Below, in pieces: positions 37,733 to 41,923 of a stretch of DNA of 64,000 bases; position 1 is the first letter of the stretch, and each line of letters starts with the position of its first letter. A program made the position numbers and the translations under genes. Source of the stretch: Hungatella sp. (GTDB lineage: Bacteria; Bacillota; Clostridia; Lachnospirales; Lachnospiraceae); the NCBI GenBank assembly GCA_022792815.1, contig JAAWBS010000057.1, positions 1 to 64,000 on the forward strand. Reading direction: 5' to 3'. The notes under the pieces were generated by a model. That model made no database searches, had not been told where the DNA came from, and saw only the letters and a list, made by a program, of their open reading frames with translations.

Positions 37733-37790
37733 ATTATAATAAGGAAAGGGCAGAGGTATGCCTGTAGATTGAGTAAAGGCGGAGATGGGT

Positions 37791-39170
37791 ATGTATCAGA
37801 TAGATTTTAGCAGACCAAAACAGGTGCACTTTATCGGCATCGGCGGGATCAGCATGAGCGGGCTGGCGGAGATCCTTATGGAGGAGGGATTTGAGGTATC
37901 CGGATCAGATTCTCAGAGGTCAGAGCTGACGAGACACCTGGAGGAAAAGGGAGCCCGGGTGTTCTATGGGCAGCAGGCTTCCAATATACAGGATGGGGTT
38001 CATGTGGTGGTCTATACGGCGGCGGTGCACCCGGATAATCCGGAGTACCAGAGGGCTCAGGATCTGGGGATCCCCATGCTGAGCCGGGCAGAGCTTCTGG
38101 GACAGATGATGAAAAATTATAAGTACGCGGTGGGAATCGCGGGGACTCACGGAAAGACCACCACCACGTCCATGGTGACTGAGATCCTTTTAGAGGCGGG
38201 CAAGGATCCCACCATATCCGTAGGAGGAATCCTCCATTCCATCGGAGGCAACATCCGGGTGGGCAAATCGGATCTGTTTGTCACCGAGGCCTGCGAGTAC
38301 ACCAACAGTTTTCTGTCTTTTTTCCCCAACATGGAGGTGATCCTCAACATTGAGGAGGATCATCTGGACTTTTTTAAGGATCTTGAGGACATCAGAAACT
38401 CGTTCAGACTGTTTGCCGCGAGGCTTCCCGAGGATGGGGTTCTGGTGATCAACAGTGACATCAACGGATATGAAGAGATCACACAAGGTCTTTCCTGCCG
38501 TGTGGTGACGGTGGGGATGAGAGAGGGAAGCGATTACAGCGCAGGCCATATCACCTATGATACATTTGCCAGGGATACCTTTGATCTTCTGGTACACGGG
38601 GAGAAAGTGGAGACCATCACCCTGGGAGTGCCCGGGGATCACAATGTGTACAATGCTCTGGCCGCCATCGCCCTGTGCCGGGAGCTTGGCGTGGACATGG
38701 AGGACATCAGGAGAGGACTTTCACAGTTTACAGGAACAGAGCGGCGGTTTGAGAAAAAGGGGGAGGTGTGCGGTGTCACCATCATCGACGATTATGCCCA
38801 CCATCCCAGGGAGATTGCCGCCACACTGGCAGCGGCGAAGAATTATCCCCACAGAAAACTGTGGTGCGTATTCCAGCCTCACACCTACTCCAGGACAAAG
38901 GCCTTTTTGGATGCATTTGCCGAGAGCCTGGCGGCGGCAGACGGGGTGATTCTGGCAGACATCTATGCGGCCAGAGAGACGGACACACTGGGGGTCAGTT
39001 CCGCCGATATCGCGGTGCGTTTGGAGGCCCTGGGCACGGAAGTACGTCACTTTTCCACATTTGACGAAATCGAGACATTTATTTTAGAAAATTGTATCAA
39101 CGGTGATTTGTTGATAACTATGGGGGCCGGAGATATCGTAAAAGTGGGAGAAAGGCTGCTTGGAGAGTAA
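37791..39170 (+). CDS. murC: UDP-N-acetylmuramate--L-alanine ligase
   Basis: A 459-residue cytoplasmic Mur ligase that adds L-alanine to UDP-MurNAc, the first peptide step of peptidoglycan precursor synthesis. VHFIGIGGISMSGLAEIL is the N-terminal UDP-binding loop, GTHGKTTTTSM (about residues 118-128) the ATP loop, EACEYTNSFL the central metal/substrate part, and DDYAHHPREIAATLAAAK, FQPHTYSRT belong to the C-terminal domain. ATG 37791 is chosen since GGCGGAG lies 6 nt upstream; an ATG two codons earlier is possible. It is a single gene rather than part of a mur cluster. A DnaA-box cluster starts 2 nt after its stop. Confidence 0.96.
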   Translation: MYQIDFSRPKQVHFIGIGGISMSGLAEILMEEGFEVSGSDSQRSELTRHLEEKGARVFYGQQASNIQDGVHVVVYTAAVHPDNPEYQRAQDLGIPMLSRAELLGQMMKNYKYAVGIAGTHGKTTTTSMVTEILLEAGKDPTISVGGILHSIGGNIRVGKSDLFVTEACEYTNSFLSFFPNMEVILNIEEDHLDFFKDLEDIRNSFRLFAARLPEDGVLVINSDINGYEEITQGLSCRVVTVGMREGSDYSAGHITYDTFARDTFDLLVHGEKVETITLGVPGDHNVYNALAAIALCRELGVDMEDIRRGLSQFTGTERRFEKKGEVCGVTIIDDYAHHPREIAATLAAAKNYPHRKLWCVFQPHTYSRTKAFLDAFAESLAAADGVILADIYAARETDTLGVSSADIAVRLEALGTEVRHFSTFDEIETFILENCINGDLLITMGAGDIVKVGERLLGE

Positions 39171-39171
39171 G

Positions 39172-39368
39172 TTATCCACATTATCCACAGAGTTTTCAAC
39201 ATTTTACGCGGAAAACTCCTGTGGATTTTTTGATTTACATAAGAAGTTATCAGCAAATTGAAATTCCTTGGATTTATGGGAAAATCTACAAGATATGACA
39301 TTATTTTTACGATTATGTAGACCATTCGTCCACATTATCCACATTATCCACAATCCAACTGTGGATAA
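39172..39368. promoter_or_regulatory. Cluster of five perfect DnaA boxes upstream of the DnaD-like gene
   Basis: Consensus TTATCCACA occurs at 39172-39180, 39181-39189, 39335-39343 and 39344-39352, and inverted (TGTGGATAA) at 39360-39368. The first four form two pairs, each an abutted direct repeat TTATCCACATTATCCACA. Between the pairs are about 145 bp of AT-rich DNA. The near-box at 39220-39228 (TGTGGATTT) has two mismatches. Such density by chance is not credible. The cluster sits between murC and the dnaD/helicase-loader genes, with the last boxes about 35-60 bp upstream of the candidate promoter. Confidence 0.88.
39184..39230 (+). terminator. Terminator-like hairpin of murC overlapping a DnaA box
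   Basis: CCACAGAGTTTTC pairs with GAAAACTCCTGTGG (one bulged G) around AACATTTTACGCG, followed by ATTTTTTG. The 5' arm uses bases of the second DnaA box, so DnaA binding and RNA termination share sequence. Confidence 0.65.
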
Positions 39369-39398
39369 ATTCCGCCTATTTTCTTTTGGAAAGACATG

Positions 39399-39407
39399 TG
39401 ATATGAT
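39399..39407 (+). promoter_or_regulatory. Extended -10 promoter candidate of the dnaD-like gene
   Basis: TGATATGAT with a poor -35 region. Transcription would start near 39414, 23 nt before the ATG, placing the inverted DnaA box at about -46 to -54. Confidence 0.5.
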
Positions 39408-39436
39408 GGGAACAGAGAAGAAAGATAAGGTGAAAA

Positions 39437-40861
39437 ATGGATATGAGAAGCTGCTTGGAATGGAAGGACACCATGGTCCCAAACGAGTTTGTCGACCGGT
39501 TTATGGCGGCGGCAAACGGGGAATATGTGAAAGTATATCTGTATGTACTGCGGCACCAGGGCCGTGTCGGGGATGTGGGACGGATCGCCGATGATTTAAA
39601 CCACACAGAGGCCGACATTAAGAGGGCGCTGAACTATTGGGTGAAACAGGGGGTGCTGGCCCCAGAAGGCCTCATGACCGGTGAGATGGCCGGCGGGGGC
39701 AGCGGGAAGGGGCGCCAGGGAGTGAGACAGGAGCCGGCAAGGGAAGGTTTACCGGGAGTGACCGCCGGAGAGTGCCTGGATCATCGGGGAGAGACGCCCG
39801 GGGAAACCATGGCGGGAGGAGATGTGAGAAACGCCTCGGCTCCCGTACCGGGAGTCTCATTTGAGCCTCTGACGGAGGCGGAAGCGCCGTTCGGGATCGA
39901 GCGGGAGTCGCCGTCGGGCTGCGCGGCAGGGACCTCCACGAAACCCACAGCCAAGGATCCGATGGGAGCCTCGGTGGGGAGCGGAATGAGCGGGACTTCG
40001 GTGAGAACCGGGAGCGGAATGAGCGGGATTTCGATGGGGATCGGGAGCGGAATGAGCGGGACTTCGGTGTGCTCCGGATCCGGCATGGCCGGGACCGCGG
40101 CGTGTTCCGGGTCCGGTGTGGCAGCAGCTTCGGGGGTCAGGACATCTCCGGGAGCAGCAGCCAGGACTCAGGCAGTTCCGAGGAAGACTTACACGCCGGA
40201 ACAGGTGAGCCGCTTGGCGGATCAGGAGGATTTCACCCAGCTTCTGTACATATCTCAGAAATACATGAACAAGGTATTTACCCCCAGAGAGTGCGAGGTG
40301 TTCGCCTATCTCTATGACAGTCTCCGCATGTCCCCGGATCTTCTGGAGTATCTGGTGGAGTACTGCGTTCAGGGAGGACATTACAGCTTCCGCTATCTGG
40401 AGTCCGTAGCTCTGAACTGGCATGAGAACGGGATCCGCACGGTGGACAAGGCCAAGGAGCACACCGCAGCCTTCAATAAAGACGGATTTGCCGTCATGAA
40501 AGCCTTTGGGATCAACGACCGCAGGCCCGGTGAGGCGGAGCAGGAGATGATATGCAAATGGTTTCGGGAGTTTGGGTTTACCAGGGACATCGTTCTTGAG
40601 GCCTGCAGCAGGACACTGAAAGCCATCCACAAGCCGAGTTTTTCCTACGCGGACAAGATTCTGTCGGAGTGGAAAAAGGGCGGAGTCCGGATCCTGGCGG
40701 ATGTGGAGAAGATGGATGAGCGGCGGGAGAGCAGGAGGACGGAGAAGACAGCTGTGGCCGCGAAGCCTGGGAAAAATCAATTCCATAATTTTGAACAGAG
40801 AAACACAGACTATGATGCTATGGTGTTGGAGCGGCTGAAAGAGAGGCTGGGGGAGCATTAG
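39437..40861 (+). CDS. DnaD-domain primosome protein with repetitive linker
   Basis: A 474-residue protein with the DnaD layout. An N-terminal winged helix (about residues 5-80; KVYLYVLRHQGRVGDVGRIADDLNHTEADIKRALNYWVKQGVL) is joined by a very long Gly/Ser/Met-rich linker (about 80-250, with an 11-residue repeat) to two DnaD/DnaB2 helical domains (about 255-330 and 350-425; YISQKYMNKVFTPRECEVFAYLYDSL and RPGEAEQEMICKWFREFGFTRDIVLEACSRT, the latter with the conserved YADKILSEWKKGGV). DnaD proteins help load the replicative helicase and remodel DNA. Partner is the loader encoded 81 nt downstream. The linker is far longer than the usual one. Confidence 0.9.
   Translation: MDMRSCLEWKDTMVPNEFVDRFMAAANGEYVKVYLYVLRHQGRVGDVGRIADDLNHTEADIKRALNYWVKQGVLAPEGLMTGEMAGGGSGKGRQGVRQEPAREGLPGVTAGECLDHRGETPGETMAGGDVRNASAPVPGVSFEPLTEAEAPFGIERESPSGCAAGTSTKPTAKDPMGASVGSGMSGTSVRTGSGMSGISMGIGSGMSGTSVCSGSGMAGTAACSGSGVAAASGVRTSPGAAARTQAVPRKTYTPEQVSRLADQEDFTQLLYISQKYMNKVFTPRECEVFAYLYDSLRMSPDLLEYLVEYCVQGGHYSFRYLESVALNWHENGIRTVDKAKEHTAAFNKDGFAVMKAFGINDRRPGEAEQEMICKWFREFGFTRDIVLEACSRTLKAIHKPSFSYADKILSEWKKGGVRILADVEKMDERRESRRTEKTAVAAKPGKNQFHNFEQRNTDYDAMVLERLKERLGEH
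39977..40133 (+). repeat. 33-bp tandem repeat in the DnaD linker
   Basis: Units at 39977, 40010, 40043 and 40076, then a degenerate fifth, each coding for GSGMSGTSVxx-like undecapeptides. The first three share GGGAGCGGAATGAGCGGG exactly; the later ones are diverged. Confidence 0.9.
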
Positions 40862-40942: not shown

Positions 40943-41923
40943 ATGGCGCTGAGCAATTCTCAGTATAATGCAATCATGCGGATTTACAGTGAGCGGCAGT
41001 TTCAGGACAGGTATGAGCAGGAGCGGAGGGTGAAGGAGGTCTATGAGAAGATTCCTCAGATCAGGCAGATCGACGAGGCCGTCAGCACCCAGGCGGTGGC
41101 CTGCGCGAGACGGCTGTTAGATGGGGATAGGAAGGCCAGAGAGAGGCTGAGACAGCAGATTGAGGATCTCCGGGAGCAGAAGGAGGTGCTTTTGGGGGCG
41201 CTGGGGTATCCAGGCGATTATATGGAGCTTCATTATTTCTGCCCCCAGTGCCAGGATACCGGCTATGTGGACGGAAAGAAATGCCGCTGTTTTAAAAAGG
41301 AGGAGATCACCCTTCTCTACGCCCAGTCCAACATCCAGGAGGTTTTGGAGAGGGAGAATTTTGCCGCATTTACTTTTGACTACTATGACGATAAAGAGGT
41401 GATTCGGCAGATCGGCATGACGGTGGCAGACTACATGAGACAGGTCTACGGGTGGTGCATGGATTATGTGAAAGGGTTTCAGGCCAAGGGGGGCAACCTG
41501 ATCTTTACCGGGAGCACCGGTGTGGGGAAGACCTTTCTCACCAACTGTATCGCCAAGGAGCTGATCGACCGGTATCAGTCGGTGATCTATCTGTCAGCCA
41601 ATGATCTGTTTGACATTTTTTCGAAAAACAAGTTTCACTATGACACGGAGGAGGAGATGCGGGATATGTACCAGTATATCCTGGACTGCGATCTTCTGAT
41701 CATCGATGATCTGGGGACAGAGCTGAACAATACCTTTGTGTCATCTCAGCTGTTTTACTGTATCAACGAACGGCTGATTCGAAAGAAGGCAGTGATTATC
41801 TCCACAAATTTGTCCATGGACATGCTTCGGGACACCTATTCAGACAGAATTTCTTCAAGAATTATCAGTCAATATATGATCATTCCGCTGTATGGCGGAG
41901 ATATCAGGACAAAAAAGCGATGA
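40943..41923 (+). CDS. DnaC/DnaI-like helicase-loader ATPase
   Basis: A 326-residue AAA+ ATPase. A helical, zinc-type N-terminal region contains YFCPQCQDTGYVDGKKCRCFKKEE, four cysteines in the pattern of DnaI's zinc-binding domain. The ATPase core has Walker A GSTGVGKTFLTN (about residues 189-200), Walker B LLIIDDLGTE, sensor 1 in STNLS and an arginine finger region SDRISSRI. It would load the replicative helicase together with the DnaD-like protein encoded just upstream. AAAGGAG lies 7 nt before the ATG. It is probably cotranscribed with the dnaD-like gene, although repeat copy 3 lies between them. Confidence 0.93.
   Translation: MALSNSQYNAIMRIYSERQFQDRYEQERRVKEVYEKIPQIRQIDEAVSTQAVACARRLLDGDRKARERLRQQIEDLREQKEVLLGALGYPGDYMELHYFCPQCQDTGYVDGKKCRCFKKEEITLLYAQSNIQEVLERENFAAFTFDYYDDKEVIRQIGMTVADYMRQVYGWCMDYVKGFQAKGGNLIFTGSTGVGKTFLTNCIAKELIDRYQSVIYLSANDLFDIFSKNKFHYDTEEEMRDMYQYILDCDLLIIDDLGTELNNTFVSSQLFYCINERLIRKKAVIISTNLSMDMLRDTYSDRISSRIISQYMIIPLYGGDIRTKKR

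Follow-up and report, generated by a model that had tools for sequence, protein, structure and literature searches.

Results

Genes and DnaA boxes at the locus

The window (the whole stretch of DNA that was analysed, 64,000 nucleotides of a Hungatella sp. draft genome) carries, in order, AIM24, murC, a region containing DnaA boxes, a dnaD-domain gene, a DnaC/DnaI-type loader gene and prs. The upstream neighbour of the box region is murC, encoding UDP-N-acetylmuramate–L-alanine ligase (37785..39170, plus strand; NCBIfam TIGR01082, 493 bits). Downstream lie the dnaD-domain primosomal gene (39437..40861, plus strand, 474 aa; Pfam DnaB_2, 1.1e-37; NCBIfam TIGR01446) and the AAA+ helicase-loader gene (40943..41923, plus strand, 326 aa; NF005304, 4.7e-113; Pfam IstB_IS21 and Bac_DnaA). 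The DnaD and helicase-loader assignments of a preliminary description of this DNA therefore hold. The dnaD gene also contains a tandem 33-bp repeat (39977–40069, 2.8 copies) that encodes a Gly/Ser/Met-rich repeat.

Five perfect TTATCCACA boxes were found between murC and dnaD, at 39172, 39181, 39335 and 39344 on the plus strand and at 39360 on the minus strand, in agreement with the preliminary description. All five sit in one span of 197 bp and no other exact box occurs in the 64 kb window. Dinucleotide shuffles of the window gave a mean of 0.39 exact boxes and a maximum of three, and none of the 100 shuffles reached five. A chance origin of the cluster is excluded. The murC-side abutted pair (39172..39189, plus strand; exact-match scan) begins one base past the murC stop codon. 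The dnaD-side tandem array (39326..39352, plus strand) consists of a degenerate box with two mismatches (39326–39334), which turns the second pair into a tandem triple, and of the perfect boxes at 39335–39352. As had been described, the DNA between the two abutted pairs is AT-rich (39190..39334; 31.7% G+C vs 51.2% in the window). The inverted perfect box (39360..39368, minus strand), which is partly conserved, lies immediately upstream of the −35-like region of a predicted dnaD promoter (39379..39407, plus strand). This promoter was predicted from conservation and is made up of a −35-like TTTTCT (39379–39384) and an extended −10, TGATATGAT (39399–39407); it would place the start of the dnaD transcript at about 39413–39415.

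The draft genome (73 contigs, 3.8 Mb, 89% complete) was scanned with the same pattern and contained 64 exact boxes, vs 17 matches to the reversed control pattern. At least three exact boxes within about 200 bp were found at four places: the murC–dnaD cluster (five boxes in 197 bp), the oriC cluster upstream of dnaA (contig C7, five boxes in 201 bp), the intergenic region of the divergently oriented hpf and secA (C44, four boxes in 107 bp) and the interior of a pseudouridine-synthase gene (C72, three boxes in 177 bp), the genes at the last three being identified by Pfam. Clusters are thus few in the genome, and the interpretation of the preliminary description, which had proposed to look at box density, was left standing by this count. 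With several boxes, beyond chance and away from dnaA, the murC–dnaD site has the sequence marks of a DnaA-box cluster outside oriC. The run in the pseudouridine-synthase gene (L034:6376-6552) is probably a coding coincidence.

The abutted pair was searched throughout the order and was found in 99 of 245 genomes; the reversed control was found in one genome on each strand. Among the 30 abutted-pair loci listed, 17 were at murC, four at hpf/secA, two at dnaA and seven at none of these (L137, L138, L139, L142, L144, L155 and L165). The L165 pair is beside a thioredoxin-reductase-like ORF and the L155 pair between Fur-like and HIT-like ORFs, as read from translations.

The hpf/secA intergenic cluster (L033:7052-7158, i.e. 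G000:C44:31051-31157) has four exact boxes including one abutted pair, and relatives L136, L141, L148 and L156 have an abutted pair upstream of hpf, so that hpf is another possible conserved target of DnaA. The 600 bp preceding secA contained exact boxes in 10 of 20 genus loci (this genome among them, and with one locus cut near the secA start) and in one of 10 other family loci (two without a readable start). A single DnaA regulon made of hpf/secA and dnaD was examined on these counts and was not retained. Since the secA scan misses pairs upstream of an intervening hpf, and hpf/secA pairs are present in eight of the 40 hold-out stretches described below, this cluster cannot be called rarer than the dnaD cluster.

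Conservation among relatives

Loci were read in 58 of the 60 relatives sampled. In 50 of them murC was in reach, and 24 of these belong to the same genus. All 24 same-genus relatives have two to five exact boxes at the murC end. At least one exact box was found in 40 of the 50 relatives; beyond the genus, this was the case in 16 of 26, with none in the other 10. The murC-end windows of the 50 relatives contained 114 exact boxes in 14 500 bp, vs 16 in the 369 744 bp of the remaining locus, and the reversed control pattern occurred zero times in these windows and six times elsewhere. The cluster upstream of dnaD is thus kept in relatives, which had been proposed as a check of the preliminary description.

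No exact box was found in four relatives whose dnaD begins at most 20 bp after murC (G035, G055, G045 and G040), a spacing that leaves hardly any room for a separate dnaD promoter. Of the 50 with murC in reach, six more lack boxes and have a gap wider than 20 bp. The eight relatives (of 58) without murC in reach had no exact box in the 3–8 kb stretches read. At the level of the class, 65 outgroups were sampled, 56 had a loader match and 39 of those were read. In these 39, dnaD never followed murC in the stretch read and each stretch had at most one exact box, although dnaD itself was present in 38 of them. The cluster accompanies the murC–dnaD arrangement of this order, since it is absent from the stretches read in the outgroups, which do not have this arrangement. 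As correlates of the cluster, gene arrangement and shared ancestry appear not to be fully separable.

The murC-side pair and a predicted terminator

An intrinsic-terminator-like hairpin (39183..39231, plus strand) directly follows murC. Its arms are at about 39183–39197 and 39211–39226, followed by a T run (39226–39231), and the 85-base region folds with −20.4 kcal/mol. The 5′ arm contains most of the second murC-side box (39181–39189). The stem is preserved in the genus via paired letter changes, even where the sequence of the second box has diverged from a DnaA box: several genus members have lost this box and have retained the stem. According to the script used to follow the stem, pairing extends to the box arms in 24 of 25 genus members; in G022 it stops early by rule, and the fold of G022 nevertheless displays the stem. 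Hairpins with ATCCACA/TGTGGAT arms after murC were also found in several other genera of the family, though not in all. A hairpin and T run after a gene, with paired changes in relatives, are the marks of an intrinsic terminator, which is predicted here.

These observations would suit a mere murC terminator with arms that resemble DnaA boxes by accident. However, the box nearest to murC is exact in 24 of 25 aligned genus members (window included) and one mismatch off in the remaining member, and in most genus members this first box is outside the stem, the pair beginning one or two bases past the stop codon. In addition, the phasing with the promoter (see below) concerns the dnaD-side array, which is outside the hairpin. 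A terminator on its own is thus a very improbable explanation, and the murC-side structure is read as a putative terminator that overlaps DnaA boxes.

Distance to dnaA and GC skew

A single DnaA C-terminal domain was found in the genome, on contig C7, whereas the window is on contig C1. On C7, dnaN (Pfam) and a recF-like gene (read from its translation) adjoin dnaA, and the dnaA–dnaN region carries its own five-box cluster. Of 20 relatives, 15 have the loader and dnaA on the same contig, at a distance of 45–844 kb (contigs near genome length were treated as circles), and in all 15 the dnaD locus is on the origin side of the chromosome. Despite this spread, boxes are kept at dnaD in 14 of the 15; the exception, G123, has no box before dnaD. 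The murC–dnaD site is thus not adjacent to dnaA–dnaN, and the statement of the preliminary description that it is not the standard oriC was borne out. In another relative, G151, 21 exact boxes flank the DnaA C-terminal domain hit (G151:C1:653902-655715, partly L140), a box-rich origin.

GC skew was followed in the complete relative G198. On both sides of the dnaD locus, each of the ten surrounding 20-kb blocks has a skew of −0.12 to −0.18. Around dnaA, the skew runs from −0.31 to +0.05 and then stays positive, so that the sign change is at dnaA. In the window, the skew is positive on both flanks of the site. Neither in this one relative nor in the window flanks does the skew change sign at the site.

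A second replication origin, or a datA/DARS-like site acting on the nucleotide state of DnaA, would fit the AT-rich DNA between the box groups and the distance from first to last box, which is 171–175 bp in 23 of 25 genus members. Over 19 genera, however, this distance varies from 97 to 186 bp, and the genome already has a dnaA–dnaN region with a cluster of its own. Such a site is hardly credible, and the secondary origin-like locus suggested in the preliminary description has the skew of G198 and the variable distance to dnaA against it; as a main reading, a secondary origin was rejected on these two grounds.

The locus may also be considered as a DnaA-titration site, the boxes of which would hold free DnaA once this early-replicated region has doubled and so delay re-initiation, dnaD being a bystander. 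The density of boxes and the location on the origin side of the chromosome are in line with titration, and the loss of all six non-oriC clusters of B. subtilis leads to early initiation, according to the excerpt of PMC5295017 consulted. However, the distance to dnaA is not kept, whereas the position beside the dnaD promoter is; phasing with the −10 is not required of a titration site, and such a site should not vanish where the gap between murC and dnaD closes. A site at a fixed distance from the origin was ruled out because the distance to dnaA varies from 45 to 844 kb. Titration is unlikely as the main role of the boxes and may occur as a by-product.

Helical phasing between dnaD-side boxes and the predicted promoter

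Across genera, the dnaD-side array commonly has two or three boxes arranged head to tail at 9-bp intervals, with an extended −10 after them. The best −35 match has only two to four of six letters in 20 of 21 genera, and in most genera the boxes precede the predicted start by about 65–95 bp. Spacing between the last box and the −10 was measured in 25 genus representatives. Four in which no −10 of score 7 or more was recognized were left out, and two values with a doubtful choice of box or −10 (g8 and g122) were kept among the 21 remaining. In 19 of these 21 genera, the distance is 58, 67–68, 76–79, 86–88 or 96 bp, the exceptions being 65 and 71 bp. The phasing at period 10 (R 0.75) was matched by none of 20 000 random sets, a p value that, like those given below for phasing, is optimistic because the null model takes distances to be uniformly distributed and genera to be independent.

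As this phasing had been noticed post hoc, hold-out loci were then measured by the same rule. They came from 40 hand-picked stretches, most of which had been chosen for holding an abutted pair and which thus do not measure the frequency of the cluster. Twenty-five had murC and dnaD. Five of these without a recognizable −10, one distance over the limit (124 bp), genus repeats and two genera already used were excluded; g84 was kept and is probably wrong, its −10 match lying upstream of later boxes. For the 15 further genera thus obtained, R was 0.51 at period 10 (p 0.018). The phase was nearly equal to that of the first set (8.0 vs 7.6; directed test, p 0.003). The hold-out distances were looser: eight of 15 were 58, 67–68, 76–79 or 86–88 bp, and the others were 51, 57, 61, 65, 66, 89 and 91 bp. 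The murC stop codon served as a control reference point, and its distance to the −10 gave R 0.29 in the hold-out. Tandem 9-bp units alone give some periodicity; a 9-bp period fits the hold-out less well (p 0.20, vs 0.0004 in the first set). The murC-side box is unphased with the −10 at period 10 (15 genera, p 0.57), with a weak signal at 10.5 (p 0.019). Boxes are thus placed consistently with respect to a predicted downstream promoter, as would be expected at a DnaA-regulated promoter, the support from the hold-out being moderate.

Looping between the two box groups was also considered. For the distance from first to last box (19 genera), p was 0.034 at period 10.5, 0.003 at 11.0 and 0.56 at 10.0, and looping is unproven.

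Discussion

The gap between murC and dnaD is probably a DnaA-responsive regulatory region of the dnaD/helicase-loader operon. The preliminary description had proposed that DnaA controls the expression of its helicase-loading partners at this site. This proposal is strengthened by the conservation of the cluster and by the periodic spacing of the dnaD-side boxes relative to the predicted promoter; binding and regulation by DnaA are what we infer from this arrangement. DnaA would bind both box clusters. On the dnaD-side boxes, it would contact RNA polymerase from a single face of the helix and alter transcription of dnaD and the loader gene. The murC-side pair and the terminator would keep transcription of dnaD separate from that of murC and may contribute a further DnaA complex. 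The amounts of DnaD and helicase loader available would then be tied to the level or the nucleotide state of DnaA, and the cluster would also retain some DnaA as a side effect.

A protein bound on one helix face upstream of a promoter is placed like an activator. The best conserved boxes are upstream of the predicted promoter, not on it, and activation is for this reason narrowly favoured: on general principles, it is slightly more likely than repression. The strongest alternative, itself a variant of the explanation retained here and overlapping with it, is that DnaA represses dnaD and the loader gene as a negative feedback. The inverted box, which abuts the −35-like region and is exact in the window and in three of 12 named relatives (L075–L077), would agree with this. 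However, none of the best conserved boxes overlaps the predicted promoter, and among the 24 same-genus relatives the inverted box is one mismatch off in seven and unrecognizable in the other 17. Repression is possible, on the doubtful side.

Control of dnaD and of the loader gene by DnaA would have partial counterparts in known systems. The non-oriC clusters of B. subtilis (such as those at gcp/ydiF, ywlC, ywcI and yqeG-sda) likewise consist of grouped intergenic boxes away from dnaA, some beside promoters, as presented in parts of PMC4447404 and PMC5295017. The genes there are different, whereas the site considered here has predicted abutted head-to-tail boxes at dnaD and the loader gene, phased with a predicted −10. 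The gene sda is a checkpoint gene outside the primosome and in this differs from dnaD and the loader gene. Its promoter in B. subtilis has a box array and is reported to be activated by DnaA in the portion of PMC4447404 consulted; the likeness is in the box array at a promoter. Among the DnaA-bound loci of B. subtilis named in that portion, dnaD does not appear. Replication genes regulated by DnaA include gua, nrdAB and dnaN and, in Caulobacter, dnaQ and dnaB (excerpt of PMC8203912). Caulobacter dnaB, the replicative helicase gene, belongs to the DnaA regulon and has predicted boxes upstream of a gene of the replication machinery, as is the case here, according to the same excerpt. However, Caulobacter is of another phylum, and the genes concerned are a helicase gene there and those for DnaD and a loader here. 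E. coli datA, which is described with DARS and the six non-oriC B. subtilis clusters in the part of PMC5295017 consulted, also has five DnaA boxes at a non-coding locus. It is about 1 kb long and needs IHF, whereas the murC–dnaD site is short, beside a promoter and at a variable distance from dnaA. In Clostridioides difficile, oriC is treated in PMC7561715, the consulted part of which gives the DnaD homologue CD3653 as awaiting characterization. No description of a DnaA-box region at a promoter of dnaD and the loader gene was found, by title or start of the abstract, among the papers listed in searches of the open-licence literature.

A broader scheme can be put forward tentatively, as speculation from comparative data. 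In much of the order that contains the Lachnospiraceae, DnaA might govern the DnaD and loader genes via phased tandem boxes, a circuit that would have arrived with the murC–dnaD gene order, and the murC-side boxes in the terminator might let DnaA adjust read-through from cell-wall precursor synthesis into replication genes.

The matching of helicase-loader supply to the initiator is, in our judgement, little explored outside model species. DnaA control of dnaD and the loader gene predicts that insertion of a half turn of helix would break the control and that a full turn would restore it. If true, it would make initiator-to-loader control testable in a large group of gut bacteria.
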